From Candidatus Tiamatella sp. (GTDB taxonomy: Archaea; Thermoproteota; Thermoprotei_A; Sulfolobales; Acidilobaceae): a stretch of 52,796 nt of DNA. Where the stretch lies: assembly GCA_015522645.1 (NCBI GenBank), contig WALV01000027.1, forward strand, positions 1 through 52,796, in the 5' to 3' direction. Numbering within the stretch: the first letter of the stretch is position 1; each line of letters starts with the position of its first letter. The notes beneath the pieces are model-generated. The model saw only the letters and a program-made list of their open reading frames with translations, was not told where the DNA came from and made no database searches. Positions 1-24,567 of the stretch are shown here, piece after piece. Both the position numbers and the translations under genes were made by a program.

Positions 1-897
1 AAAGCTGCTTATATACCTTTCGATACAGCTGTTCCGAAAGTAGCTATGATAGATATAGACCACTGTATATTTTGTGGGCAATGCGAGCTAGCCTGCCCAG
101 TGGGGGCAATTAACTTCCTCCAGAAACCGATACTCCAGAAATTCAAGGTTGGAGCTGTAATCATAGCAACTGGCTACCAATTGTTCCCAATTACGAGGAA
201 GAAGGAATACATGTATGGGAAACTGGCCAATGTAATAACAGCTATGCAAATGGACAGGCTTCTATCACCTACAAGGCCTTATAATACTGTACTAAGACCG
301 AGTGACGGAAGGGAACCAATGAATATAGCTTTCGTTTTATGCAGTGGCAGCAGAGACAGAACCGTTGGTAACCCCCTCTGCTCACAGATATGCTGCATGT
401 ACTCCATAAAGCAAGCCCAGCTCCTAATGGGAGCACTCCCCTTAGCTGATATAACCGTTTACTACATGGATATTAGAGCCTTCGGTAAGGGTTTCGAGGA
501 GTTTTACCAGCAAGCAAAAGATATGGGTGTAATATTCGTCAAGGGAAGAGTAGCTAAGATAGAGCCTAGTGGAGACGGTAACATAGTTGTGTATTACGAA
601 GATATAGAAAACGGGGGCAGGCTGAGTAGGGCAGAGCATGATCTTGTCGTTCTATCAGTTGGGATACTACCGAACCCAGGCGTAGCCAATGTCTTCAAGA
701 ATGCTCGACTAGAGATAGACGAGTATGGCTACATCAAGCTTCCCGAGAACTATACCAGTACAGCTGAAACAAGCATACCAGGGGTATTCGCAGCTGGCTG
801 CGCAGTCGGACCAAAAGACATTCCTGACACAGTTGTTGAAGCCGCAGCGGCAGCATCACAAGCCGCTGCTTACCTCTCGGAGGTGAAGAAAAAGTGA
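1..897 (+). CDS. HdrA-like flavoprotein subunit, C-terminal part (5' end outside window)
   Basis: Heterodisulfide-reductase A family flavin/FeS subunit, probably moving electrons in a soluble-to-membrane complex. The frame is open back to base 1, so the ATG at 46 is internal and the gene begins outside the window. Visible parts in order: the HdrA-type segment with IPF..AVP just before a ferredoxin motif C-x2-C-x2-C-x3-CP (CIFCGQCELACP), a flavin-domain segment VIIATGY, the HdrA cysteine cluster CSGSRDR...CSQICC, and a C-terminal FAD-binding GVFAAGCAVGPKDIPDT. The stop overlaps the next gene's GTG by 4 bases (GTGA), so the two are translationally coupled. Together with the next three genes this resembles a QmoABC-like set, but I cannot tell QmoA from a general HdrA on this fragment. 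Confidence 0.9.
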   Translation, partial: KAAYIPFDTAVPKVAMIDIDHCIFCGQCELACPVGAINFLQKPILQKFKVGAVIIATGYQLFPITRKKEYMYGKLANVITAMQMDRLLSPTRPYNTVLRPSDGREPMNIAFVLCSGSRDRTVGNPLCSQICCMYSIKQAQLLMGALPLADITVYYMDIRAFGKGFEEFYQQAKDMGVIFVKGRVAKIEPSGDGNIVVYYEDIENGGRLSRAEHDLVVLSVGILPNPGVANVFKNARLEIDEYGYIKLPENYTSTAETSIPGVFAAGCAVGPKDIPDTVVEAAAAASQAAAYLSEVKKK

Positions 898-2852
898 GCG
901 GCGATGGGAAAGATATCCGCATAGGAGTTTATGTTTGCTGGTGCGGTGGAAACATATCAGACGTAGTCGATGTAGAGAAGGTTGTTAACGTTATAAAGAA
1001 CGAGGAAGGGGTCATTGTAGCTAGGCATTTCATGTTCATGTGCTCTGAAGCAGGTCAGAAAATGATTGAGAACGATATCAAGACGCATAATCTAAATGCA
1101 GTGGTAGTGGCTTCCTGCTCGCCGAAACTACACGAATTAACATTTAGAAACACTGTTCTTAGAGCAGGGATAAACCCTTACATGTACTATCATGCTAATA
1201 TTAGAGAACAGGTAAGCTGGGCACATAGTGATAGCAAAGAAGAAGCAACTAAGAAAGCTATAAGACACATACGTATGGCAATAGCATATCTACGTCATGC
1301 AGAGCCTCTCGAAAAGATCAAAGTAGAAGCCACACCCGCCGTACTCATTATTGGAGGAGGAGTTACAGGTCTCCGTGCAGCAATTGATTTAGCCAGGGCC
1401 GGAGTGAATGTATATCTTGTGGAGAAGGAACCGTTTCTAGGAGGTCATGTTGCAAGGCTTGGAGAAACATATCCTTCAGGCCGTCCTGGCTGGGAACTCG
1501 TATCGCGTTTGATAGACGAGTTATTGAAGCATGATAACGTAGCCATATATACGAAGGCAACTGTTGAAAGAGTTGAGGGGTATATTGGGAATTTTGATGT
1601 AACAATTAAAGTTTCACCTAGATATTTCGTCAAGAACTGTGAAAGAATAGAAGAAGCAATATCTAGATGCAATAAGAGAGTCCCGGATGAATGGAGTTAC
1701 GGTGTTAAAACAAGGACACCTATACTATTGCCCCCCTATCCTGGGGCATATCCAAGGATACCGGCTCTGGATATGAAGGCATGTGGCGGAGATAAGTGTA
1801 TGGAATGCTTGGAGCCTTGTAAAGATGCAGTCGACCTAGCTATGCAGGAACAGGTTATAAAGCTTAAGGTTGGTGCAGTGATAACTGCTACGGGGTTTAA
1901 CCCGTACGAGCCTAGTGAAGGGGAGTTCGGTTATAAGCAGTATCCATATGTCATAACCCTTCCACAGTTTAATAGTATCCTAAAAGAATCGGGTAACGGG
2001 AAACTTGTAGTAAATGGTAAGGAAGTAAAGAGCCTAGCATTTATCTATTGCGTGGGCAGTCGACAGAGGGAAGGTAGAACTTACTGCTCGAGATACTGTT
2101 GTAACGCTACAATATATGCTGCGTTACTTGTAGCTAAGAAGTTCCCTGGAGTGAAGCAATACCATTTCTACCGGGATATAAGGACCTATGGAAAGAATGA
2201 GCTGATGTACGAGCAGGCATCAAGGAGTGGGGCTGTATTCATAAAGTACCCGGAGGAAGAACCGCCTAAAGTAACAGCTGAAAATGGGAGTCTTCTAGTT
2301 AGATCGAGAGATCTTCTCACTGAAGGCCTTACTATCGATGTATCTGTAGATCTCGTTGTCCTAGTTACAGGCATGGTTCCGAGGAACAATAAGGATCTCA
2401 ACGAGTTATTGAAACTCCCATTAGGAAAAGATGGATTCTACCAAGAAGTACACCCTAAGCTAAGGCCTGTAGAGACCACGCTATCAGGGTTCCTAATAGC
2501 CGGTACAGCCCAGGGACCTAAGGACACATTGGAGTCCCTCTCATCCGGGTCAGCAGCAGCTGCTAAAGCAGGAGGCATAGTGTTGAAGAGAATAATAGAG
2601 CTCGAGCCTTTCAGAGCGTTTGTAGATCCCGACAAATGTGAACTTACCAGGCAGTGTGTAGCAGAGTGCCCTTACATGGCTATCAGTGTGAAGAACTATG
2701 AGGGTAAAGGTGAGAAGGCCTGGGTGAATCCTGCGATCTGTAAGGGCTGTGGAGCATGCGTGGCTGTATGTCCGAATAATGCGATACAGATCAAGGGCTT
2801 GACGAATGATCAGGTGGTTGATATGATAAAGGCAGCCGCAAGGGAGGTGTAA
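894..2852 (+). CDS. HdrA-like FAD/4Fe-4S subunit
   Basis: A 652-residue HdrA-type protein. The N-terminal HdrA domain (VCWCGGNISD, then CSPKLHE) is followed by an FAD-binding GGGVTG motif near residue 153, an inserted cluster motif C..DKCMECLEPC near residue 300, the HdrA motif CVGSRQR...YCSRYCC near 390, and a C-terminal two-cluster ferredoxin domain. In that domain the second cluster is canonical (C616, C619, C622, C626-P). The first reads C582-x2-T585-x2-C588-x3-C592-P, with Thr in place of one cysteine ligand, so it may hold a 3Fe-4S cluster or an unusual fourth ligand. The GTG start overlaps the preceding stop. It lacks the MvhD-like C-terminus expected of a classical QmoB, so 'HdrA-like' is the safest name. 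Confidence 0.92.
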   Translation: MSGDGKDIRIGVYVCWCGGNISDVVDVEKVVNVIKNEEGVIVARHFMFMCSEAGQKMIENDIKTHNLNAVVVASCSPKLHELTFRNTVLRAGINPYMYYHANIREQVSWAHSDSKEEATKKAIRHIRMAIAYLRHAEPLEKIKVEATPAVLIIGGGVTGLRAAIDLARAGVNVYLVEKEPFLGGHVARLGETYPSGRPGWELVSRLIDELLKHDNVAIYTKATVERVEGYIGNFDVTIKVSPRYFVKNCERIEEAISRCNKRVPDEWSYGVKTRTPILLPPYPGAYPRIPALDMKACGGDKCMECLEPCKDAVDLAMQEQVIKLKVGAVITATGFNPYEPSEGEFGYKQYPYVITLPQFNSILKESGNGKLVVNGKEVKSLAFIYCVGSRQREGRTYCSRYCCNATIYAALLVAKKFPGVKQYHFYRDIRTYGKNELMYEQASRSGAVFIKYPEEEPPKVTAENGSLLVRSRDLLTEGLTIDVSVDLVVLVTGMVPRNNKDLNELLKLPLGKDGFYQEVHPKLRPVETTLSGFLIAGTAQGPKDTLESLSSGSAAAAKAGGIVLKRIIELEPFRAFVDPDKCELTRQCVAECPYMAISVKNYEGKGEKAWVNPAICKGCGACVAVCPNNAIQIKGLTNDQVVDMIKAAAREV

Positions 2853-2856
2853 TGTT

Positions 2857-3144
2857 ATGTCAAAGAGGAAGAAATTCACGGTTCATATTCTGAGGGATAA
2901 ACTGGGCCTTAAGCCCTCTCAGGAGTTATTGGATCACTTGAAAGAGCAGAAGAGGGTGGAGGGATTGATAAGGAAGGCGATATTAAAGGATCCCAAAACT
3001 GTCCCTGAAATAGCTGAGGAAACAGGGTTAGATGAAACACTGGTCTTCTGGTACCTTATGACCTTCTTCCGCCACGGACTAATTGAGGAGACTGGAAAGA
3101 CGGATGAAGGGTACTTCAAATATGTTTGGAAGGAGAGGAGGTGA
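2857..3144 (+). CDS. Small winged-helix protein inside the Hdr/Qmo-like operon
   Basis: A 95-residue protein whose middle (DPKTVPEIAEETGLDETLVFWYLMTFF) reads as a helix-turn-helix followed by a short wing ending in YFKYVWK. It starts at ATG 2857 with a strong GGGAGGTG site at 2842-2849, 5 bases after the upstream stop, and the next gene starts 4 bases after its own stop, so it is a cotranscribed operon member. It may be an autoregulator of the operon or a subunit-like adaptor; nothing in the sequence decides. The fold call is by pattern only. Confidence 0.75.
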   Translation: MSKRKKFTVHILRDKLGLKPSQELLDHLKEQKRVEGLIRKAILKDPKTVPEIAEETGLDETLVFWYLMTFFRHGLIEETGKTDEGYFKYVWKERR

Positions 3145-3147
3145 ACA

Positions 3148-4245
3148 ATGATGGCTCGGGCTAATCCCGTTCTCTTGAATGATATCCTCAAACTCGGGGC
3201 GTTTGATGTAACAGCCTGCTTCAGTTGTGGAGTATGTACAGCTACTTGTCCATTAGTAGAGGAGGGAGGGGAATTCCCACGTAGGCTAATAAGATATGCG
3301 ATGCTGGGCTTGGAAGATAAACTTCTAGGAGCACCTGAACTATGGGCATGTTATTACTGTGGTGAATGCACGAGGAGCTGTCCAAGGCAAGCTGATCCAG
3401 GAGGCTTTATGATGGCTGCTCGACGCTTTGCTATAACAAAGTATTCCATTGGGAAGATAGGGAAAGTATTCTACGATAAGATTTATGGAAGCATCGCACT
3501 GGCAATACTCTCTCTAATAATGGCTCTTGGAATATGGTGGCTCCACAATCCCATTCCAGGAGGCAATGTTGACCTGTTCAAATTCCTAGACGAGGGCTAT
3601 ATTCACGAGGGAGGCCTGGTTCTAGGAGTTTATGTTGGAATAGTTGCACTCGCGAACGTTATAATCATGCTCAGATACCTATTCAAGTCTAGTAACATAC
3701 CTAAGGCGAGTATAGGTGATTGGATTAAAGGCTTCATAGATACACTGTTCGCAGAGGTATTGTGGCAGGGAAGATACAATAAATGTGACAGCAAAGGGAG
3801 GTTCATAAGTCATATGGGGATATTCTGGGGGTTCGTGTTGCTAATGATAGCGACTACAATAGACTATGTAACGGGAGCTAGACAATTATCAGCAATGGTG
3901 TTGGGTGCCATAGGTGGAGTATTAATTACAGTGGGTGGCGGATACTTCATATGGATACGTCTAGCAAAGAGAGATGAGTACAGTACATACAGCGATTTCG
4001 TTGACTGGATGTTCATCTGGCTAGTATTCCTAGCAGGTATAACGGGATTCCTAATTGACTTGTTCACCTATTATAACCTACAACTGACCACATACACGAC
4101 TTTCGCAATACACCTAATAGTTGTATTCGACCTCATAGTGACAGCACCCTTTACCAAATTTGCACACGCTGGATACAGGCCGCTCGCAGTATGGATCTAC
4201 AAGGTTGCCAGGAAACCCCAAGCAGAGACAACTACGGCGGTCTAA
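3148..4245 (+). CDS. HdrC-like FeS protein fused to a membrane anchor (QmoC-like)
   Basis: A 365-residue fusion. Residues 1-100 carry two HdrC-type cluster motifs, C24-x2-C27-x2-C30-x3-C34-P and C68-x2-C71-x2-C74-x3-C78-P, with the typical RRLIRYAMLG segment between them. From about residue 108 several hydrophobic segments form a DsrM/HdrE-like integral membrane domain. This architecture is that of QmoC, the quinone-interacting subunit, so the complex probably exchanges electrons between a membrane quinone and the HdrA-like flavoproteins encoded just upstream. The start is ATG 3148 (ATG 3151 possible), with GGAGGTGA at 3137-3144 overlapping the previous stop. No Dsr or Apr gene is visible in the window, so the soluble redox partner is unknown. 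Confidence 0.88.
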   Translation: MMARANPVLLNDILKLGAFDVTACFSCGVCTATCPLVEEGGEFPRRLIRYAMLGLEDKLLGAPELWACYYCGECTRSCPRQADPGGFMMAARRFAITKYSIGKIGKVFYDKIYGSIALAILSLIMALGIWWLHNPIPGGNVDLFKFLDEGYIHEGGLVLGVYVGIVALANVIIMLRYLFKSSNIPKASIGDWIKGFIDTLFAEVLWQGRYNKCDSKGRFISHMGIFWGFVLLMIATTIDYVTGARQLSAMVLGAIGGVLITVGGGYFIWIRLAKRDEYSTYSDFVDWMFIWLVFLAGITGFLIDLFTYYNLQLTTYTTFAIHLIVVFDLIVTAPFTKFAHAGYRPLAVWIYKVARKPQAETTTAV

Positions 4246-4292
4246 TTCAAACTATGTTTTTACATAATCCTAATCCAGTTTTACTGTAATCG

Positions 4293-4484
4293 ATGTCAAA
4301 TTTGGTGATGGAAATGAATGTTGAAAGGGAATATACTCTACTCCCGAGCTGTAGCAAATACGCTCCAAATCTCATTACGATAGCTGCATGCGATGGAGCC
4401 TCGAGCGTAGGCCAATTAGGTAACGAAGTTGCTAAAATCCTAGCACAGATTGCTTTGCAGTCCCCGTTAAACCTACGAAGGTAA
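4293..4484 (+). pseudogene. Truncated DGC-type zinc-binding protein (N-terminal remnant)
   Basis: The 63-codon frame contains CDGASSVGQLGNEVAKIL, which matches the start of archaeal DGC-domain putative zinc-binding proteins (usually over 100 residues). After LAQIALQSP the frame ends abruptly at a TAA, while the reading sense passes into another frame that encodes an unrelated-looking C-terminal tail (next entry). The simplest reading is a deletion that fused the start of one gene to the end of another. It lies just after the QmoC-like gene. Family identity is from the motif only. Confidence 0.5.
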
Positions 4485-4615
4485 AGCGTTACCTGGAAGA
4501 CTTCTTCGTAGCAAGTTACTGGTCCACCCTCAAATACCCAGAGAGATGGGAGTCGATATTCGAGGCTTATTTCACCGCTACAGCACCCGAAATACTGAAA
4601 GAAGGAGGATGGTAG
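4436..4615 (+). pseudogene. C-terminal tail of a lost protein, possibly an SQR-type flavoprotein
   Basis: A 59-codon frame without a start codon, open only back to a TAA, encodes a well-behaved protein tail (FAVPVKPTKVKRYLEDFF, then YWSTLKYPERWESIFEAY) ending at TAG 4613-4615. It overlaps the broken DGC frame by 49 bases in a different frame. Its position directly before a DUF1641 gene suggests the missing gene was a sulfide:quinone-oxidoreductase-like NAD/FAD oxidoreductase, because DUF1641 genes often follow those. That assignment is an inference from context; I do not recognise the tail by itself. Confidence 0.4.
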
Positions 4616-4621
4616 AATTGA

Positions 4622-4951
4622 GTGAACAAAAACATACAGGACACTATGTTAATGGAAGAAGAGCTCCTCGATAAAATCAACCAAATACTCAGTAATATAA
4701 CAGAATCCGGGTTACTCAATATGCTTGCAGCAGCAAGCGATCCAGAAGCAATAAGGAGACTAATACAAATACTAGTCAACCCCAGTACAATGAAGCTATT
4801 TGATAACATAGACGTACTCCTAAACCAATCAGGAGACATAAGCAAAACACTCTCAGAGCCTGTGGAACCTATATCTCTATTCGCATTCTTGATGAGACTA
4901 AGAGACAAAGATGTAAGCAGAGGACTAGCGAGATTACTGGCAATACTATAG
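4622..4951 (+). CDS. DUF1641 family protein
   Basis: A 109-residue protein with the DUF1641 pattern: an amphipathic helical body (LLDKINQILSNITESGLLNML) and a C-terminal segment SLFAFLMRLRDKDVSRGLARLL. Such proteins accompany SQR-type flavoproteins or formate dehydrogenases; their own role is not settled. The start is uncertain: GTG 4622 is 12 bases after the strong site AAGGAGGA (4602-4609), while TTG 4618, ideally spaced, opens a frame (LSEQKHTG...) that stops after 18 codons. This may reflect a one-base frameshift near the 5' end. ATG 4646 is a further option. Confidence 0.7.
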   Translation: MNKNIQDTMLMEEELLDKINQILSNITESGLLNMLAAASDPEAIRRLIQILVNPSTMKLFDNIDVLLNQSGDISKTLSEPVEPISLFAFLMRLRDKDVSRGLARLLAIL

Positions 4952-5054
4952 ATTTTAGGAAAGGAATAGACTTTTTTCGAACTATTTCACTAGAATAACA
5001 GGAATCGACAGATTAATGTATATTGTATGCATTGGGTTGTATTTGACCTATTTA

Positions 5055-5062
5055 TTTTTTTT
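5055..5062 (+). terminator. T-run terminator after the Hdr/DUF1641 region
   Basis: Eight consecutive T residues lie in an AT-rich 225-base spacer, with a weaker six-T run at 4972-4977 just after the DUF1641 stop. Crenarchaeal transcription ends at such T tracts without a needed hairpin. I see nothing else in the spacer 4952-5176. Confidence 0.45.
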
Positions 5063-5176
5063 AAACTTAAATGTGCTGTTTTAGAAAATAAGTTGTATAC
5101 CTTGTAAAATTAATGGTTATCATGCTCAACAGCCTGTTAAAATCAGATTCTTCAATGCCATTAGGGGTGTAATGAG

Positions 5177-5629
5177 ATGGTTGTCGGGTTTGGTTATAAT
5201 AAAAGAATAATAATGATAATATTGCCTGTAATAATATTTGGGATTGTTATCTTGTCGCCATTGATTAACACGGCTTTTGGCGCAAGTAATACATGTACTG
5301 ACGGTGATAGTGACACCCTTTTCAACAATGTAGATGTTATAGCATCAATAGCTGGTACAACACCGTCTAATTCAGTGGGGAAAGCATCGGCTACCGGCAA
5401 GGGTGGGATAGGTTGCACAGATCCTTTTGAAGCGGATTTCTCTTGGTATTTTACGTCTCAATACGGTCAGAGCTATAGTGGTTCAATTCCCCTACCATAT
5501 GGTGAGAGCTACCCGGCCACGGCAAGCTGGAGTTCCGGTGAGACAGGAAGCTGGGTAGCTAGTAGCGGGTCGATATGTGCTGCTCATGCTTCAGCAATAG
5601 CTTACCTATACGGTGCCTGTGGTAGCTAA
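5177..5629 (+). CDS. Small secreted Cys/Ser/Gly-rich protein of unknown function
   Basis: A 150-residue protein with a clear signal peptide or anchor: KR at residues 9-10, a long hydrophobic run (IIMIILPVIIFGIVILSPL), then a likely cleavage region TAFGAS. The mature part is rich in Ser, Gly, Ala, Tyr and Thr and has four cysteines (after SNT, GIG, GSI and YGA), which could form two disulfides. It starts at ATG 5177 with GGGGTG at 5164-5169. It is the first gene of a tight set with a giant ABC permease and its ATPase, so it may be the exported cargo, a receptor partner or an antimicrobial-type product. No family recognised. Confidence 0.75.
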   Translation: MVVGFGYNKRIIMIILPVIIFGIVILSPLINTAFGASNTCTDGDSDTLFNNVDVIASIAGTTPSNSVGKASATGKGGIGCTDPFEADFSWYFTSQYGQSYSGSIPLPYGESYPATASWSSGETGSWVASSGSICAAHASAIAYLYGACGS

Positions 5630-5660
5630 GAATAATTAATGGGGCAATGGGTGGGCTATA

Positions 5661-8351
5661 TTGGAAAGTAGGATAACTATCCTCATTATTTTTTCCTTTC
5701 TATTCTTCCTAGCATTCTCAACGATACATTCAGTTACATATTCCTTACCCTCCGAAACTGGATTACAAACAGTTAAACTCCATTATTCCTTTGAGGCTTC
5801 TAACAAATCATTCACAGGCTACAATAATTTGGGAGGAAAGATTTCTGGCTCGGTAATCAAACTTAGGTTAAATACTCTTTCCTATGTAGGTGAAAGCGTA
5901 TCAAGGAGTCTTGGACTCAGAAAATATAATCCATCTTTTGTTATAGAATTGGGATCTACTTGTAATTTATATGCTGAAAACATAACAGCTACGGTTGAAA
6001 TAAGTGGTAAAGACCTATATGAAGAAGTTGAAATAAGAGGAGGCCTGCTTTCATGTTTCTACAATTCTAGTTCCAAGGATGCAAAAGTTGAGCATACTAT
6101 ATCACTCATTCTCAGCAGACTCGGGCAGGTGGAAAAGAATCCTGTAAAACTAGCTATTAGCTTGCCCGATGGAACTAATATATCAGTCCTAGCTACCTAT
6201 TTCAACAACGCTTCCATAAAAGCCAAAGGTATCTTTGATAAAACTCACTGGGCTATAACTGATACAGCAGGGCACTATTTACGCGATAACATTTATATTC
6301 TCCCGCCAAGCCTGAATGGTACATTATTCATCTATGCATACAGCAAGCCTATGGATAGTGCGGTTCATGAATATTTTCTTATAAAATATGGGGTAGATTT
6401 AGCTGGATACGTTGGTTTATACGGAATAAATCTATCATCCACTACTCCGTTTAATTATACAGTAAGAGGTCTTGGGATCATCCCATCTTATGATACTGTT
6501 TATGCACCAAGCATTATACTCGGGTCAACAGAGGAGTTCAAAACTTATACGGTGGATGACGCGCATAAAATAGCGAGGATGGTTTCTTCTAACTCTTCTA
6601 ACCCTAGTTGGGGTAGAGCTTTCGATGTATACGTTGAGGATAATAGGGTTAGGATTGTATCAAAGAGTTTCGAGGAACTGGAATCGTATCTCGACTCATA
6701 TGCTAGAAGTTGGAATGTCTCCCTTTGTAATCAAACAGTGAACAATCAATCATTGCCAGGTGGCTTGACGGTGAAAACAGCGATACTCTATTCACCTTGC
6801 GTGGATGCTGATGGTTTAAGGTTCATTTATGTTCAAAGTGCGCTTGACACTGTATACATTTATAGCAGATCTAGTGGCCTATTGCTTGAAGCCATTTACC
6901 CGGAATCAGTTAAACCCCCAGGGATCGGTATTGGGAGCGTTGCTGGTAATGCTTGGAGGGAATTGAATGAAGGCATTGGGAATGGGTATACTTACATTAT
7001 GACCCTCAACGGTGATCCTGTATCGGCTAAGTTAACAAGCGTCGAAGGCTTGAATGCAACTAAATACTTTGTTATTAGGGCAAATGGTGAGAGGAGCTGG
7101 ATGAAGGATACTACGCTCGCAGCAATAATAGGCCTCCTTGCCGCTACCCCGATTTTCATAACTCGCAAGCCGCTCGTAGCGATTGGATTGTTTTTGGTAA
7201 TTCTGGGTATATGGGGTTTGGCGTTCCCCTATTCTGTGGTTACACGGGGTGAAGTAAATGCCAATTCGGTTAGTTATGGTAATTTAATTAATTCAAGTCT
7301 ATATGTTTACGCTGACAGTAAGGATTCTATGACTTTCTATGTAACAGGTAGTTGTCCGTATGATGTAAATGTCAGTGTTACCGGGGGGTATAATAGGTGG
7401 AAAACTTATGGTTCGTCCTATGGTAGATCTTCCGGTGGGATAGGTTTTGGTGACCCTATGATTTACCATATTGTTGCTAGTGCGAAAGGATCTGGGAACT
7501 GTAGTAAAATGCTGTTACTTGTATCAGGCAAGGGTTCTCCTGAGCCTGGTGACATCAGGGAGGTTAGGATGGCTTCCCTTCCCATACTACTTGCTGGTGT
7601 AGTATTGTTGGTTGGAGGGTTGTTTCTCCGTGTAATTAGAGGTGGTCTGTGGACGTGGAATTTGGAGGCTAGTTTTCTTTACGTTGCTTCTATTGTTGTG
7701 GTTGAACTGGTTTTATTTATCTACCTTAGGAATCCTAGTCCCTGTAAGATAGGTGGATTCTGTTCTGGCAGTAGCTCCGTAGATTTAGTTCTTGAGGCTT
7801 CATTGATTCCTATGCAGGCATATATGTTGATTGCAATTTACGCTACGATAGTTGCTGGTATATTATATGGCCATCACTTGGAGTCAGGTCTTGACAGGAG
7901 GTTAATTTTGCTTGGCATTGGGAGGATTCGTATACAATTGTATAAGCTTGGTGCACTGGTGGTGCTTGTAGCGTTACCTTATACTTCTGCTAGGCTTTTC
8001 CTTGAGATACTTGTCGATTCGAATGTCGCGTATACTAATTTACCTTACCTCTTTACTGGATCTCTGCTGGCGGGTACTGTTATTGCATTGGTGTATGGTG
8101 GTTTATCTGGGTTGTTGTCGATGGCTCTGGGTAGGTTGTCTTATACTCTTCTCATTGTAATACCGCTAGTGGCTACTGTTTTCTCTATTGCCGGTTTCTA
8201 TATAATGGCTAGTATGGAGGCTATTAACAGAATAGTTGCAGGATTATATTTGCCCTCTTATTTGCACATGTATGTAATTTACCAGGTCTTACTCGCTATC
8301 GTTGAAGCATTTCTCCTAGTTATATGGGGTGCCGTGAGGCGGGAGCTTTGA
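5661..8351 (+). CDS. Giant ABC-type permease with a large extracellular domain
   Basis: An 896-residue membrane protein. An N-terminal hydrophobic segment (residues 4-25) is followed by about 450 residues of polar, beta-like sequence with many N-x-S/T sequons, so this part is most likely outside the cell. Hydrophobic segments resume near residues 485-530, a second exterior stretch spans about 530-640, and several membrane segments follow to the C-terminus, where LLAIVEAFLLVIWGAV is last. The TTG start has GGGTGG just upstream. Its end overlaps the ATPase start, so it is the permease of that ABC system. The organisation recalls ABC-2 permeases but the N-terminal ectodomain is unusually large. 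Substrate unknown. Confidence 0.8.
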   Translation: MESRITILIIFSFLFFLAFSTIHSVTYSLPSETGLQTVKLHYSFEASNKSFTGYNNLGGKISGSVIKLRLNTLSYVGESVSRSLGLRKYNPSFVIELGSTCNLYAENITATVEISGKDLYEEVEIRGGLLSCFYNSSSKDAKVEHTISLILSRLGQVEKNPVKLAISLPDGTNISVLATYFNNASIKAKGIFDKTHWAITDTAGHYLRDNIYILPPSLNGTLFIYAYSKPMDSAVHEYFLIKYGVDLAGYVGLYGINLSSTTPFNYTVRGLGIIPSYDTVYAPSIILGSTEEFKTYTVDDAHKIARMVSSNSSNPSWGRAFDVYVEDNRVRIVSKSFEELESYLDSYARSWNVSLCNQTVNNQSLPGGLTVKTAILYSPCVDADGLRFIYVQSALDTVYIYSRSSGLLLEAIYPESVKPPGIGIGSVAGNAWRELNEGIGNGYTYIMTLNGDPVSAKLTSVEGLNATKYFVIRANGERSWMKDTTLAAIIGLLAATPIFITRKPLVAIGLFLVILGIWGLAFPYSVVTRGEVNANSVSYGNLINSSLYVYADSKDSMTFYVTGSCPYDVNVSVTGGYNRWKTYGSSYGRSSGGIGFGDPMIYHIVASAKGSGNCSKMLLLVSGKGSPEPGDIREVRMASLPILLAGVVLLVGGLFLRVIRGGLWTWNLEASFLYVASIVVVELVLFIYLRNPSPCKIGGFCSGSSSVDLVLEASLIPMQAYMLIAIYATIVAGILYGHHLESGLDRRLILLGIGRIRIQLYKLGALVVLVALPYTSARLFLEILVDSNVAYTNLPYLFTGSLLAGTVIALVYGGLSGLLSMALGRLSYTLLIVIPLVATVFSIAGFYIMASMEAINRIVAGLYLPSYLHMYVIYQVLLAIVEAFLLVIWGAVRREL

Positions 8352-9217
8352 CAGATTGGGTTGTTATATTTGATGGCGTATGGGTTAGGTATGGTTCTAC
8401 GATTGCATTGGAAAACGTGTCGGTTAAAATAGAGGAGGGGCTCACTTTAATTACAGGACCGAATGGTTCGGGTAAGACTACGCTTCTCAGGGTTTTAGCC
8501 GGTATTAGGAGGCCTAATAGAGGGAAGGTTTTTGTTAGAGGAGTTGATATCTACTCTCATATGTTTCCATCCAATAAAGGTGTAAACGGCTTAGTTGGAG
8601 ATGAAATGCTTCCCTACTGGCTGACCGGCATGGAGTACATGGAATACGTTGCAAATATGACGAAGACAAATACGGATAGAATAATAGAGCTTGCACGCAA
8701 GCTGGAGCTAACCCAATACCTAAGGAAAAGAACATGGGAATTAAGCAGCGGCAACAAGAAGAAGCTCCTCCTAGTCATAGCTCTTTCAGTAGAGTCAGAT
8801 ATACTAGTTATCGACGAGCCTTTCGCTACACTAGACCCCAAAACAGTAAGGAAAGTTGCAAGCATAATAGTAGCGGAGTCCAAGAAGAGGCCTGTAATAG
8901 TTGCTACACACGTTCTCTCAGCGGAGCTAAGTGAGGCATCTAGACTCCTCTTTATGATGGCTGGCAAGATCATCGCTGACTATGATCTCAAGGATATCGT
9001 ATCAGTAGATTCTCCCATATTTAGAGCCAAGCTTTACGAAATACCTAGGAATCCCTTAGAGGTAGCTAAAGAACTCGGTGCTACAGAAGTAACAATAGAA
9101 GAGAGAACAGCATATGTGGTGCTTAACGGGAGGTCTCTGCTCGATTGTTTAGAAAGAAGAATATGCTCATCATATACTATTGACGTTTCTAGGTTACTCT
9201 CTTCTCTAATGGCTTGA
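8348..9217 (+). CDS. ABC transporter ATP-binding subunit
   Basis: ATPase partner of the preceding permease. It has Walker A GPNGSGKTT, an ABC signature LSSGNKKKL (a variant of LSGGQ), Walker B ILVIDEPFATLD and the H-loop in VIVATHVLSAE; the C-terminal 70 residues are a typical regulatory tail. I prefer TTG 8348, which overlaps the permease stop as TTGA; ATG 8324 (8 codons longer) is the alternative. Codon and base composition of the permease and the first part of this gene are richer in T and G than the rest of the window, which may indicate a different history. The product would be about 290 residues. Confidence 0.9.
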   Translation: MTDWVVIFDGVWVRYGSTIALENVSVKIEEGLTLITGPNGSGKTTLLRVLAGIRRPNRGKVFVRGVDIYSHMFPSNKGVNGLVGDEMLPYWLTGMEYMEYVANMTKTNTDRIIELARKLELTQYLRKRTWELSSGNKKKLLLVIALSVESDILVIDEPFATLDPKTVRKVASIIVAESKKRPVIVATHVLSAELSEASRLLFMMAGKIIADYDLKDIVSVDSPIFRAKLYEIPRNPLEVAKELGATEVTIEERTAYVVLNGRSLLDCLERRICSSYTIDVSRLLSSLMA

Positions 9218-9303
9218 TGATGCTCAAGGAATCTAATGAGCTGAAGTTCTCAGAATTAAATGGAGAAACACTTAAGGGTTGATTGCACATTCTTACCTGG
9301 TAG

Positions 9304-10146
9304 GTGAGTTTATTGATTGAAACGTCATCTTATTCATCTATCGGTAAAAAACTCCGTTTGTCCAGAATCTTGGATCCCCAAGGTTCACTTGTTTTCGCTT
9401 TCGACCACTGGATGGAGCATGGCCCTACTGATTTCCCTGATGAGAGGGTTGATCCTAGGGTAATTCTCAAAGAGGTTATAGACGCGGGTGTAGACGCGGT
9501 TATGCTGACACCAGGGGATGCAAGGTTATTCCATGACCTCTGGATGGGCAGAACCTCCCTCATAGTAAAGATTACAGGTAAAACCAACATGCGGCCATCA
9601 GACCAGCGCCTACTACAAAGCATTACTGGAACAGTGGAGGATGCGGTAAGGCTCGGAGCTGACGCAGTAGCTGCAACAGTATATTGGGGCAGCCCTTATG
9701 AGGATGCCATGCTCAAACAGTGGACACTTATTAGGGAAACAGCTGAACTCTACGGGCTTCCTGCCTTACAGCTAGCTTATCCACGTGGGCCCGCTATAAA
9801 GGACAGGTATGCTCTTAACACCGTACTGTATGGGGTTAGATCAGCTGTTATGGTTGGAGCTGACTTGATAAAGACATACTATACCGGTGAGGGGGAGTCG
9901 TTTGCAAAAGTTGTTGAAGCAGCTTCCGGAATACCTGTCATGATGAGCGGGGGACCTCACAGGGACAGCCCGCTAGAATTCCTAAGAGACCTTGAAGCGG
10001 TTCGAGATGCTGGTGCTGCTGGGGCTGTTGTGGGTAGAAATATATTCCAGGCAACGAATATCGAAGCCATGGCGAGGGCGTGTAAAGCCGTGATTCGCGG
10101 GGAAATGGACCCTAAGGAAGCAGCCTATACGGAGGGCCTATTATGA
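9304..10146 (+). CDS. Class I fructose-bisphosphate aldolase / DhnA-type aldolase
   Basis: A 280-residue TIM-barrel aldolase of the archaeal FbaB/DhnA family. Evidence: the early FAFDHWMEHG strand, TPGDARLF, the Schiff-base lysine strand DLIKTYYTG, and phosphate-binding GIPVMMSGGP and GAVVGRNIFQ. The family includes fructose-1,6-bisphosphate aldolase and ADH synthase of aromatic amino acid synthesis, and the sequence alone does not decide. GTG 9304 is the longest start, but AGGTGAG at 9302-9308 is well placed for TTG 9313, which may be the true start. Its stop overlaps the PfkB kinase start by 4 bases, pointing to a sugar-phosphate operon. Confidence 0.88.
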   Translation: MSLLIETSSYSSIGKKLRLSRILDPQGSLVFAFDHWMEHGPTDFPDERVDPRVILKEVIDAGVDAVMLTPGDARLFHDLWMGRTSLIVKITGKTNMRPSDQRLLQSITGTVEDAVRLGADAVAATVYWGSPYEDAMLKQWTLIRETAELYGLPALQLAYPRGPAIKDRYALNTVLYGVRSAVMVGADLIKTYYTGEGESFAKVVEAASGIPVMMSGGPHRDSPLEFLRDLEAVRDAGAAGAVVGRNIFQATNIEAMARACKAVIRGEMDPKEAAYTEGLL

Positions 10147-11072
10147 CGAAAAAACTAGACGTAGTCACCGTTGGCCACGCTCTTGTGGATATTAGAATAG
10201 TTGTTGATAGGCTCCCGGGCCCAGACGAGGAGGCCGCGATAAGGGAGGAGGTACGAGGGGCAGGAGGCTCCGCTGTAAATGTTTCAATAGACGTATCTAA
10301 GCTAGGAGGTACGAGTGGGATAATCGCAAAGATATCATTCGATTCCTTCGGGAGAATAGTTTTCGAAGAACTCTGGAAATCCAAGGTAGACATAAGAGGA
10401 TTGAGAATAAGCCCATCGGGATCCACAGGGTTTAGCATTGTCGCCATAAGCAATCTAGGTGATATTACAATATATGGAAGCAAAGGAGTAGCTGAAACCC
10501 TAGAACCTAGGGAATTAGATAAGGAATTAATAAGCGATGCAAAAACAATCCACATAGCCAGCCTCAGGTTGGACACTAGTATGGAAGCCGCAAAAACAGC
10601 TAAGCTGGCTGGAGCAATAGTTTCCTGGGACCCGGGTAGAAGACTGGCCAGACAAGGGGTAAATAAACTCGGAGACCTGCTACAGTACGTAGATATTGTA
10701 TTTCTAAATAAACTAGAAGCCGAGGCAATGACAGGCCACGACCCAGCTATTGCAGCTAAAATAATAAAATCACATGGCCCTAGATGGGTTGTCGTAAAAC
10801 TAGGTAGCCAAGGATCACTACTATACGGGCCTGAAGGCTCAAAGAAAATCCCCGCTTACAAGCCGCCACGAGTCCTAGACGAGACAGGGGCAGGAGATGC
10901 TTTTGCCGCAGCCACACTTCTCAAACTAGTTGAAACAGAGGACATCGTAGAGGCATTAAACTACGCTTCCTGCGTAGCCGGGCTCAAAGTATCCAGACTA
11001 GGATCCCACAATATTCCCGATTACAATGAAATGAGCCGGTTATCTAGAGAAATAAACTACTGCTCAAAATAG
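10143..11072 (+). CDS. PfkB-family carbohydrate/nucleoside kinase
   Basis: A 309-residue ribokinase-fold kinase. It has the N-terminal glycine-rich substrate motif RGAGGSAVNVSIDVSKLG and the C-terminal anion-hole and catalytic motif DETGAGDAFAAATLL, where the Asp of GAGD is the catalytic base. The PfkB family phosphorylates sugars, sugar phosphates or nucleosides; specificity is not readable. The start ATG overlaps the aldolase stop (ATGA), so the two are coupled and may act on consecutive sugar-phosphate steps. A T-run follows 58 bases after the TAG stop. Confidence 0.9.
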   Translation: MTKKLDVVTVGHALVDIRIVVDRLPGPDEEAAIREEVRGAGGSAVNVSIDVSKLGGTSGIIAKISFDSFGRIVFEELWKSKVDIRGLRISPSGSTGFSIVAISNLGDITIYGSKGVAETLEPRELDKELISDAKTIHIASLRLDTSMEAAKTAKLAGAIVSWDPGRRLARQGVNKLGDLLQYVDIVFLNKLEAEAMTGHDPAIAAKIIKSHGPRWVVVKLGSQGSLLYGPEGSKKIPAYKPPRVLDETGAGDAFAAATLLKLVETEDIVEALNYASCVAGLKVSRLGSHNIPDYNEMSRLSREINYCSK

Positions 11073-16132: not shown

Positions 16133-17377
16133 CTACCTACGTCTTCTAACAGCTCTAATAACATTTTCAATAGCATAATCAACTATTGTACTATAGGTAA
16201 TTGAGGATCCCCCGGTTTTCTCGGTGCATACAGCCTTTAACCAGGGGCAACCTGTTTTCTCTGCTCTAGTATATGCTGCAGAGAGTTCTTTGGGACTGCA
16301 TTTGTCTTTCTTGACTTCATAGCATGCCTTTGGATACCTTGCTTTTTCATCGAGTATAACTATGTCAATATCTCCCTCTTGACCAGGGAGTATCGTGTAA
16401 GCCTGGACTCCTCGATAGTATTCTGCAAGTATTTCCCCTACGTTAAATGCTAATTCAGTAGAATAGAGCTCTGTAACCCAATCTGGTTTCACAGGTATGT
16501 CCAGCTCGTCAGTGGCATACTTCCCCATCAACCCATATAGTATTGAGAGTAGCGGGGATGCATGTTTATAGTAATATCTGCCTTTACGGGTCTTCCAGAG
16601 CTTTACCTTTGTAACTAACCCCATAGATTCTAGTTTATCAAGGATCCCGGTTACTGTTCCAGGTGAAGGCGTCTCTATTAACCCTCTAGCATATAGTGTG
16701 TGTGATATTTCCCTTGGATTCCAGTATCCTGATCCTAGGAGTTTGAGTACCTCCTCATATAGCCTCGTTAGCTTCCTATCCTCCTCGCTAAATACTTCCC
16801 CTATTAACCCTTTAACAGCCATAGCAAGAGCTTTATGGTTTTCTAAAATGAACTCTATAGGATTCAATGACTCTAGAATTGATTCGGCATAGGGCGTTAT
16901 CCATGGATCCCTTAAGATTACACTCCAGTAAACAGCTTCAGACGGTGATAGCCTAGGGTATAGACTTACCACAGCGTCACTCGCATTTATCACCGGGATC
17001 CTAACCGGTTTCACAAGGCCGAGCAGGGGACTTCTCTTGCTATATACCTTCTCCACGATCCCGTAGCTTGATGCTGCCAAAACTAGTGTTCCAGAAGGAT
17101 GAGGGAGAGCAAGCGCGTCCCAATAGTCTTCAGGGAGTCTTTGAAACTCGTCTATAAATACCTCCGCGTTATTTTCCAACTTTGATACTGCCATACTTAT
17201 GGCATTGTCAATCGTCATAGTTTCAAACTTACTTTTGCATACGACTAATGCTTTACCGCTCCTTGTTATTATTAGGTGGAGTCCTGGTCTTCTAACTGTT
17301 TTTACAGTGAAGGTTTTGCCCGTCTTCCTTCTACCGTAGAGGAGAACCCAGTTTTTCTCGTTCCTTGTAAGAGGCAT
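16133..17377 (-). CDS. Archaeal AAA ATPase with winged helix and PD-(D/E)XK-like C-terminus (copy 1)
   Basis: A 414-residue member of the archaeal ATPase/DUF234-type family. It has Walker A YGRRKTGKT, Walker B VFIDEFQRLP, a central winged helix (GYWNPREISHTLYARG) and a C-terminal nuclease-like core in which DIDIVILDE...YEVKK matches the D-x(n)-ExK pattern. The ORF extends to GTG 17404, but ATG 17377 has an ideal GGAGGCGGGAA ahead of it and gives almost the same length as the paralogue at 17919-19160. These families are expanded and often mobile in hyperthermophilic archaea; their biological function is not established. No partner gene is adjacent except the fragment between the two copies. 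Confidence 0.82.
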   Translation of the reverse strand: MPLTRNEKNWVLLYGRRKTGKTFTVKTVRRPGLHLIITRSGKALVVCKSKFETMTIDNAISMAVSKLENNAEVFIDEFQRLPEDYWDALALPHPSGTLVLAASSYGIVEKVYSKRSPLLGLVKPVRIPVINASDAVVSLYPRLSPSEAVYWSVILRDPWITPYAESILESLNPIEFILENHKALAMAVKGLIGEVFSEEDRKLTRLYEEVLKLLGSGYWNPREISHTLYARGLIETPSPGTVTGILDKLESMGLVTKVKLWKTRKGRYYYKHASPLLSILYGLMGKYATDELDIPVKPDWVTELYSTELAFNVGEILAEYYRGVQAYTILPGQEGDIDIVILDEKARYPKACYEVKKDKCSPKELSAAYTRAEKTGCPWLKAVCTEKTGGSSITYSTIVDYAIENVIRAVRRRR

Positions 17378-17405
17378 TTCCCGCCTCCATATAACTATTC
17401 TCACT

Positions 17406-17918: not shown

Positions 17919-19160
17919 ATGAGTTATTGTGTTATCGAGAGAAAAGAATGCAGTGATCTAGCTGGGATTACTGGGTCATTGCTTGTTTACGGTAGGCGTA
18001 AGACTGGTAAAACCTGGCTAGTCCAGCGTTGTGCTAGCTATGATGAGTATATGTTGGTTAGCCGTGAAGGAACATGCTTGATAGGCGATGAATTAAGGGA
18101 GAAGGACTTAGGTGATTGCCTGGAAAGAATAACAAATGTATTGTCGAATGACGGGATCGTTGTAGTAGACGAGTTCCAGCGTATTGCTAGGAAGAGCTGG
18201 ATGGACGCCGTAGCTCATAGGTTAGCAACAGGTAAGGGTAAGCTTATTCTCCTAGGTTCCAGCTACGGTGTTTTAGACAGTATTTTCTCCTCAAATAGCC
18301 CATTGCTTGGATTAGTTGAAGCATACAATGTTGACCTCGCTGATCCATTGGACACTATATCATCGCTTGTTAAATGCGGTGTAGATCCTGCGAGAGCAGT
18401 TAGATGGTTGGGTTTAGCAAGAGATCCATGGATTCTAGGCTTAGTGAAGCCAAGCGGTGATCCAGTGGATATGCTATATCGTCGGGCCAAACAATTAGTC
18501 CCTGTAGCCCCAGGGCTTATTGGAGAGATATTTGCCGAGGAGGGCCGTAGTTTGGCTCGAATTTACGATGCAATACTAAGGCTTCTCGCTAAAGGATACT
18601 GGAATACTAGTCAGTTGGCTCACAGACTTTATAGTAGTGGATTACTCGGAAAACCCGCTCAAACAGCTGTAACTGGATACATTAAAAACCTCGAGAGCAT
18701 GGGCCTGGTCAGAGGAGTAAGACTATGGAAAACTAGAGGGGCCAGGATATATTATAGGCATAGGAGCACTCTCCTCGCTATACTCTACTACATACTTGAT
18801 AGAGTAGACGAGTTAGAGCAGAAGCCTAGCAAAGAATCACTAAGATCAAGATACTACATGGAACTGCAGTTCGATCTAGCAGAACTTTTTGCCAAAATCA
18901 AGAAGCTTAGGCCAGCATATTCAATTACCCTTGAAGGTTGGGACGTTGATATTCTCCTCGTGGATAGTAAAGGTAGGCCGCAATGGGCATACGAAGTCAA
19001 GACAGGATCGCTGAGTAGAGGTGAGGCAAAGAAAATTATAGAGAGAATAAGAGGCCTAGGGATCCCCCGTGTGGGATTTATCAGTTTACAGGAGAAGCCG
19101 TCGATGATGAAGGGTGTTGATGAAGTTTGGGGTCCAACTGAGCTAGTTGGATTATCATAG
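17919..19160 (+). CDS. Archaeal AAA ATPase with winged helix and PD-(D/E)XK-like C-terminus (copy 2)
   Basis: A 413-residue paralogue of the minus-strand ATPase at 16133-17377. It shares Walker A YGRRKTGKTW, Walker B VVDEFQRI, LGSSYGVLDSIFSSNSPLLGLV, the winged-helix segment GYWNTSQLAHRLYSSGLL, the basic KTRGARIYY hairpin and the nuclease-like core WDVDILLVD...YEVKTG. The copies are divergently arranged with starts about 540 bases apart. The transcript is probably leaderless. Function unknown; cell-cycle, mobile-element or stress roles have all been supposed for such families. Confidence 0.85.
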   Translation: MSYCVIERKECSDLAGITGSLLVYGRRKTGKTWLVQRCASYDEYMLVSREGTCLIGDELREKDLGDCLERITNVLSNDGIVVVDEFQRIARKSWMDAVAHRLATGKGKLILLGSSYGVLDSIFSSNSPLLGLVEAYNVDLADPLDTISSLVKCGVDPARAVRWLGLARDPWILGLVKPSGDPVDMLYRRAKQLVPVAPGLIGEIFAEEGRSLARIYDAILRLLAKGYWNTSQLAHRLYSSGLLGKPAQTAVTGYIKNLESMGLVRGVRLWKTRGARIYYRHRSTLLAILYYILDRVDELEQKPSKESLRSRYYMELQFDLAELFAKIKKLRPAYSITLEGWDVDILLVDSKGRPQWAYEVKTGSLSRGEAKKIIERIRGLGIPRVGFISLQEKPSMMKGVDEVWGPTELVGLS

Positions 19161-23115: not shown

Positions 23116-24567
23116 TTAGAGCGTGTCTTCCAGTCCTGCAGCATACTTGGCTAGCTTCTTGCTTCCATCATACTTGTACGACCTGTACAATTCTATATAG
23201 CTTGCCTCAATAGAGCCTTCCGCATGAATCATTGCCGTCGTGAACAGTGCGCCGAATGAGGAGAGTAGCTCCTTCAGCAACATGAAGTATTTTGCTCTCT
23301 CTAGAGCGGGAGTATCCTTTCCTACTAGGTATTTATGGAGATATCCCCTTATTTCAGGGTTCTCAAAGTCCTGTAGAGTAGGGACAGTCGCGGCTAAGCC
23401 TCCAGCTACATCTACGAGGTTTTGAATAGCATTGGTGTACTCCGTGTTCGCGAGTAATTTCCCTATGTTAGTCATAATAATGTTCGGAACCACTATCCCG
23501 GTATTATTATCTTTCTGCGCCTCATACGCCGCAGCTATCGCCGATGCTCTCAGCGTCTCTTTGTATCTGATCAAGTTAACGATATCCCTTCTTATATGCG
23601 ATTTATTGTCTACTCCGTTTGCTTCGGCAAGTAGTTTCGCCAGACCAATCATTAGGTCAGCCATTGCCGCTCTATATGATATTGCTGTGAACCTGTGGTA
23701 TGTAGGGAACATTACTGCCATTGCTCCCGCGAACTGCCACTCTCCCGCTAGGAATACTCTTTCCCATGGAACGAAGACATTATCGAGTATTGTCAAAGTC
23801 TCGTTTTCAACGTTCCTCCTGCCCATAATGAAACTCGGGTCCTTGAGAGCTGATTCAACGCCTTTCATGGGTCTAGATATCAGTTTAAGGCCTCTAGTGT
23901 TGGCGGGTATGGCGAATGCTACAGAGTAATCCGCGTCTTTTTCAGTCATATTCCTTGTTGGTATGAATATTATTTCATTTGCAGCTATTGACTGCGTCGT
24001 ATGTACCTTGGCTCCCGATACTATGATTCCATCCTTATTCCTCTCCACTATTCTAACGTAAAGATCTGGGTCACGCTGCTCGTGAGGCCGTAGCGACCTA
24101 TCTCCTTTCACGTCCGTTTGAGCCACTGCTAGTGCTAGATCGTTATTTACAATGTTTTCATAGAACTACATTATGTGATCATAATACTCTGTTCCCATCA
24201 CGGCGTCGAGCTGCTTTGCCACCATCATTATTGCGAATATAGCGTCAGAGCCTATTGCTTTGATTATGTTGAACATCCCTCTACCTAGCCTTGTTGTCTC
24301 ATATATTAGTTCGAATCTCTCCATTAAGTCGTTTGAAGACCTGGGTATTCTATAGAACTTGCTTATCTCACCATACACGGGGTCGTTGTATACAAGCATG
24401 TCTCTATACTTCTCGTCTTGCGCCAGTGAATACAGGTCAGCAGCATGGCTTACCGCTGCTTTAAGGACTTCGTGTGTGGTAACGTCATCTACTTTCTGGC
24501 CGCGGTAATAGATTTCTCTCCCGTCCCTCAGGCTTTGGATGTATTCTTCTCTACTGCGTAAACCCAT
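23116..24567 (-). pseudogene. HpaB/4-hydroxybutyryl-CoA dehydratase family flavoprotein with one in-frame TAG
   Basis: One continuous frame on the minus strand encodes a normal-length (about 483 residue) HpaB-family protein, broken only by TAG at codon 134 (24166-24168) between EYYDHIM and FYENIVNNDLALAVAQTD. Homology-like sequence continues without shift, including TDVKGDRSLRPHEQ and GAKVHTTQS. ATG 24567 has GAGGTGG upstream. Type-1 4-hydroxybutyryl-CoA dehydratases bind 4Fe-4S with Cys99, Cys103, His292 and Cys299; here the CxxxC region reads NIIKAIGSDA, and the His region YHRFTAISYR keeps His but has Tyr and Arg where Cys and Lys belong. This is therefore a type-2/HpaB-like member without the cluster. 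The break may be a true mutation, read-through or a sequencing error. Two fragments (23116-24126 and 24166-24567) would otherwise be called. Confidence 0.8.

Follow-up and report, generated by a model that had tools for sequence, protein, structure and literature searches.

The closest described system to the genes considered here is the lactococcin 972 (Lcn972) operon. In Lactococcus lactis, the pBL1 operon (structural gene, orf2 and orf3) encodes a 91-residue bacteriocin, a 648-residue membrane protein and a 207-residue ATPase. Lcn972 is a Sec-secreted beta-sandwich bacteriocin that targets lipid II, and orf2 and orf3 are putative immunity genes, the functions of the B and C genes being unverified (PMC11796350, PMC4055356). 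We analysed a 52,796-nucleotide stretch of DNA (hereafter the window; contig WALV01000027.1 of assembly GCA_015522645.1) from Candidatus Tiamatella sp., an archaeon of the Acidilobaceae (Thermoproteota). It carries a trio of genes in the same order: small secreted protein, ectodomain-bearing ATP-binding cassette (ABC) permease and ATPase. A first-pass annotation had known of no family with this layout, a view that the Lcn972 operon contradicts. The trio belongs to a real, conserved, patchy and uncatalogued accessory gene set of the Thermoproteota that is mobile or readily lost. Judged from sequence comparison it is an analogue of the Lcn972 system at most and not a member, because the sequences are unrelated and the Lcn972 permease is of the FtsX class.

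The likeness to Lcn972 operons (pBL1, and scbABC of Streptococcus pneumoniae) lies in the order of three genes on one strand, a Sec-type signal peptide, a beta-sandwich small protein and a transporter presumed to give immunity. The differences are more extensive. The small protein of the window matched neither PF09683 nor TIGR01653. One full-length family member did score E 0.043 with TIGR01653, but this score came from the signal peptide, since it vanishes in all mature sequences (absent in 10 of 10 at E up to 10). Alignment with hhalign gave a probability of 0.07 for the small proteins and 0.1 for the permeases. Lcn972 permeases belong to the FtsX/DUF1430 class, and a control Lcn972 permease (L036) matched PF07242 with an E-value of 5.9e-22, whereas the window permease matches neither DUF1430 nor FtsX and has an ABC-2 type core. 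Mature Lcn972 has 66 residues and no Cys, against four Cys and a mature domain of about 114 residues here, and its target, lipid II, is presumably lacking in archaea.

All three open reading frames of the trio were found on the plus strand where the first-pass annotation had placed them. The small protein gene (5177..5629) encodes 150 residues and, as had been proposed, a secretion signal and four Cys. Its hydrophobic N-terminus contains a signal peptide of about residues 1-36. The Cys residues, at positions 40, 80, 134 and 148, are all kept in the four closest homologues; Gly is also conserved in the alignment, and several members have extra CxxC pairs. AlphaFold2, run with ten sequences, predicts the mature protein to be an eight-stranded beta-sandwich (predicted local distance difference test, pLDDT, 94.7; predicted template modelling score, pTM, 0.85). 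Taken together, these features are consistent with Sec secretion and disulfide bonding. The earlier suggestion that the small protein may be the cargo exported by the ABC transporter is not supported, and such export would be unneeded because the protein has its own signal peptide.

The small protein matched no Pfam or NCBIfam family. A search with its predicted fold returned generic beta-sandwiches only (ApaG, FN3-like domains of glycosidases), none with an E-value below 1e-3, and Lcn972 was absent from the 50 best matches shown. Matches of the Defensin_4, Rhodanese_C and PLiG type were weak and were treated as chance. Profile searches of the PDB with the small protein, the ectodomains and the permease gave nothing significant. 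None of the small proteins, ectodomains and permeases tested across relatives falls in a Pfam or NCBIfam family.

The permease gene (5661..8351, TTG start) encodes 896 residues, with hydrophobic segments near 7-27, 483-528, 633-665, 667-691 and 713-736, plus four more. About 455 residues lie between the first two segments, in agreement with the first ectodomain of roughly 450 residues described earlier. This ectodomain 1 (5742..7100, residues about 28-480) is followed by two transmembrane segments and by a second extracellular stretch of about 100 residues that the first-pass annotation did not mention (ectodomain 2; 7251..7556, residues about 531-632), and the protein ends in the ABC-2 type core (7626..8351, residues 656-896). 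Applied by eye, the positive-inside rule places both long stretches and a conserved CKxGGxC loop outside the cell, and a conserved ESGLDRRLxLLGxxR segment inside; judging by its position, this segment should lie where the coupling helix is expected.

The structural model of the permease is poor overall (pLDDT 47.9), with ectodomains of low confidence, among them an all-beta ectodomain 2, and a core that is usable at about 70-86. Foldseek matched this core to NosY, CcmB and PmtCD (7o0y, 7o12, 7znq, 8ce1, 6xjh) with TM-scores by target of about 0.5-0.57 and a probability of 1.0. Since the E-values lie above 1e-3, we say that the modelled core resembles the ABC-2 (type V) fold, with six transmembrane segments and a coupling helix, at the level of fold class only. 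NosDFY, CcmAB and PmtCD, all ABC-2 (type V) exporters, share this core fold, but none has a fused ectodomain 1 of about 450 residues together with a second ectodomain. The permease matched no curated ABC-2 permease or other family in Pfam or NCBIfam; it has an ABC-2 fold but belongs to no named family. The ATPase (8324..9217, 297 residues) matches PF00005 with an E-value of 9.7e-20, and its Walker A, Walker B, signature and H-loop residues are invariant among homologues. Two starts are possible from the sequence: the listed ATG at 8324, which gives a 28-nucleotide overlap with the permease gene, and the in-frame TTG at 8348. The TTGA overlap proposed earlier therefore stands if TTG 8348 is the start. 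The PADLOC anti-phage defence models gave generic ATPase matches only, with no non-ATPase component matched.

Comparison with relatives shows how the long permease is composed. Our searches covered 60 genomes of the same family, 214 of the order and 229 of the class; the permease core was also searched against 398 genomes of the phylum. The phylum search revealed a five-gene form in family f38 of another class, where each of ectodomain 1, ectodomain 2 and the permease has its own gene; on this ground the 896-residue protein is a three-part fusion of these components. The fused and stand-alone versions of ectodomain 1 align in hhalign with a probability of 99% (E 7.9e-18), and the fused core aligns with stand-alone permeases of 235-250 residues at 97.5% (E 6.4e-12). 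For ectodomain 2 the profile-profile match to a stand-alone gene of about 175 residues is weak (32%, E 4.7e-4), so that its homology rests mainly on position and size. Stand-alone ectodomain 1 in relatives is a gene of 430-514 residues with a C-terminal transmembrane segment. G010 has separate genes for the ectodomain (514 residues), a 203-residue protein, the permease (240 residues) and the ATPase, and G069 and G077 have a gene of its own for ectodomain 1 and a joint one for ectodomain 2 and the permease. In a hidden Markov model scan of the neighbourhoods, E-values were 1e-11 to 1e-13 for ectodomain 1, 1e-12 to 1e-22 for the permease and 1e-44 to 1e-55 for the ATPase. Small proteins were recognised with E-values of 3e-12, 1.1e-11, 1.4e-8 and 1.2e-5, and a fifth one (L082) by an enlarged profile.

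The fused form, with permease and small protein together, occurs twice in the window genome (C27, which is this window, and C51) and once each in G009, G027 and G035; three of these genomes are metagenome-assembled genomes of the Acidilobaceae. Small protein, permease and ATPase follow one another on one strand in all five fused loci, and the genomic context varies between loci. Carriers make up 4 of the 229 genomes of the class and 4 of the 17 genomes of f38, and the small protein is carried by 2 of the 122 class genomes that are at least 90% complete. Because the relatives' genomes are mostly metagenome-assembled, absences in incomplete genomes carry little weight. No relatives were found on plasmids.

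Profiles recognised ten intact small genes in eight genomes (window, C51, G009, G027, G035, G471, G389, G369 and two in G404). In all ten loci ectodomain 1 directly follows the small gene, separated by anything from a short overlap to about 60 nucleotides, a complete ABC set adjoins and every reading frame is open, which supports the trio as a functional unit. In G369 (L080) ectodomain 1 lies beyond the ATPase gene, and the small gene has moved along with it, standing behind the ATPase gene and still directly before ectodomain 1. A second, frame-broken small-protein gene lies directly after ectodomain 1 in the same locus (L080 11379-11793). Among the loci found, no intact small gene was seen without its transporter; transporter genes do persist, broken, without the small gene. 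The trio is more than a chance arrangement, since homologous versions of the gene pair occur at five fused and five split loci. The constant pairing of small gene and ectodomain 1 is also our best clue that the two proteins may interact, in line with the earlier proposal that the ectodomain may bind or process the small protein.

Looser operons with a small secreted protein before an ectodomain gene were seen at L085, L087, L088 and L089, with small proteins not significantly similar to that of the window. Those of L087 (7436-10573), L088 (6411-10043) and L089 (6092-9794) come from other families of the phylum and run small secreted protein, ectodomain, ATPase, permease, second ectodomain; in L087 and L088 a helix-turn-helix regulator lies upstream. 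The small genes of G069 and G077 likewise lack significant similarity to the window small protein. We treat all of these as leads and not as members. In G009 and G027 a HEPN/minimal nucleotidyltransferase pair, of toxin-antitoxin type, lies directly upstream of the trio (L014 10708-11145, L015 5016-5808).

The set behaves as an accessory one. G001, a genome of the same genus, is about 90% identical to the window up to position 4345 and about 78% identical from 9358 (window 1-4345 corresponds to 2908-7251 of its locus L056, and 9358-11054 to 7371-9067), and the 5 kb between are missing. Besides the trio, this block (4346..9357, without strand) includes two genes on the left of the trio that are broken or accessory; the block may have been inserted in the window genome or deleted in G001, and two genomes do not decide. 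The G001 copy of the C51 locus is a remnant. Its flanks are intact, but what survives between them is three segments of 67-76% DNA identity, of which two belong to the permease gene; stops and large deletions occur, and the small gene and ATPase gene are gone. G025 has lost transporter genes that its congener G069 has kept. Here a small-protein gene has its 3' half joined to the C-terminal part of a surface protein (L051 7766-8209, minus strand); in G069 this surface protein lies beyond the ABC genes, and the fusion is a deletion scar of the transporter module. In G053 and G291 (L049, L084) the transporter genes have broken permeases and no small gene accompanies them. The two paralogous copies in the window genome encode small proteins that are only 35% identical.

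It is this patchiness, together with the paralogous copies and the loss within a genus, that marks the set as mobile or readily lost. The first-pass annotation had hinted at transfer from a deviating base composition. That argument is weak and we reject it as evidence: the GC content of the trio (0.418) lies about one standard deviation below the window mean (0.440, standard deviation 0.021), and a GC content no higher than this is found in 19% of window stretches of equal size. Between G009 and G027, the ratio of nonsynonymous to synonymous differences (pN/pS) is 0.16 for the small gene, 0.25 for ectodomain 1, 0.38 for ectodomain 2 (few sites), 0.09 for the core and 0.19 for the ATPase, with 0.03-0.12 for four flanking genes. 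These values indicate that all parts are functional, that the outside parts of the permease change fastest and that the gene set is under purifying selection.

The archaeocin-like role raised in the first-pass annotation fits these data best, and we favour, tentatively and at somewhat less than even chances, the reading that the small protein is secreted and bacteriocin-like and that its producer protects itself with a dedicated ABC-2 system. The trio would then be the fused form of a patchy thermoproteotal set, comprising a Sec-secreted, disulfide-containing beta-sandwich protein and a dedicated ABC-2 transporter with two extracellular domains. The small protein would be released and act on neighbouring related cells. 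Ectodomain 1 would recognise the small protein, or the surface target occupied by it. The ATPase would hydrolyse ATP, and the ABC-2 core and ectodomain 2 would transmit the effect so as to remove the small protein from the producer's membrane. We base this proposal on the invariable linkage, the accessory behaviour, the Lcn972-like layout, the resemblance of the core to PmtCD among others and the persistence of the transporter without the small gene; binding to ectodomain 1, toxicity and immunity are what we infer from them. Sulfolobicins of Sulfolobus are secreted antimicrobial proteins of the Thermoproteota, active on close relatives, but are described as membrane-associated heterodimers of about 20-22 kDa (PMC5733018).

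Several observations weigh against a bacteriocin-like role. In the profile and fold searches, which did not extend to sulfolobicin sequences, the small protein showed no sequence similarity or close structural similarity to known bacteriocins or toxins. It is conserved better than the ectodomains (35-46% identity between loci, against 19-34%) and, given its low pN/pS, it is therefore not a fast-diversifying toxin. Loss is common to many non-toxin accessory genes, and copy numbers are small.

The conservation of the small protein, with purifying selection about as strong as on the ATPase, would suit a surface or extracellular structural protein that the ABC-2 system handles after Sec export, in membrane release, folding, or assembly of a surface layer or filament. 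The constant adjacency to ectodomain 1 would also fit, and some ABC-2 systems do have extracellular partners, as in the case of NosDFY, one of the fold matches found for the core. We nevertheless consider this explanation unlikely, though the most serious of the alternatives: patchy presence and decay in close relatives would be unusual for a needed surface component, and the predicted monomer appears to be complete as a sandwich and to lack an obvious donor strand with which to polymerise.

The NosY/CcmB-like core, the four conserved Cys and the extra CxxC pairs could instead point to a secreted metalloprotein or chaperone whose ligand is supplied or stripped by the transporter, as NosDFY does for nitrous oxide reductase. 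The conserved Cys positions fit two disulfides equally well, however, the set is not accompanied by redox or metal genes at the loci examined, and there is no NosD-like beta-helix family match, making this improbable. A role in sensing or uptake, in which the small protein would capture an outside ligand and dock on ectodomain 1 so that the ligand is taken up or its presence signalled through the transporter, is a shade more improbable still. It would account for a small secreted protein beside a large receptor-like ectodomain, but ABC-2 cores, as far as we know, act as exporters or mechanotransmitters, the small protein has no membrane anchor or lipobox, and the fused loci show no linked genes for regulators or catabolism. 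A true but very distant Lcn972 system inherited from bacteria, suggested by the identical gene order, similar reading-frame sizes, beta-sandwich small protein and single TIGR01653 score, is largely refuted by the loss of that score without the signal peptide, the hhalign probabilities of 0.1 or less and the difference in permease class, and we hold it to be very improbable.

Elsewhere in the window, positions 4380-4614, between heterodisulfide reductase (Hdr)-like genes and the trio, hold remnant coding sequence: a 30-residue stretch is similar to the beginning of the DGC domain, with a score that falls short of the cut-off (PF08859, E 8e-4), and is followed by more broken coding-like sequence, so that this is probably a decayed gene. 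A DUF1641 protein (PF07849) is encoded at 4622-4951, inside the block that G001 lacks, and may be part of the upstream Hdr-like operon rather than of the trio. Two clearly related archaeal AAA-type ATPases of about 415 residues, with a C-terminal nuclease-like part, diverge back to back at 16133-17404 (minus strand) and 17919-19160 (plus strand). A 4-hydroxyphenylacetate 3-hydroxylase-like gene at 23116-24126 is without about 145 N-terminal residues, the HpaB_N profile being matched from position 146 only, and is truncated or broken.

To our knowledge, very few antimicrobial proteins are known from the Thermoproteota. It is possible, if rather doubtful, that the set represents a new family of archaeal secreted beta-sandwich antimicrobials with a new ABC-2-based self-protection transporter, its receptor ectodomains fused in the Acidilobaceae, that is independent of the Lcn972 design. 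If so, a gene for a small secreted protein that immediately precedes ectodomain 1 in an ABC-2 set would provide a searchable signature for archaeal intermicrobial conflict in hot springs, the small protein would offer a heat-stable domain, and the locus would exemplify convergence in operon design, reached with a transporter class that is unrelated. Even with a different role, the set in its fused and split forms makes up a transporter family that is uncatalogued and has an extracellular partner.

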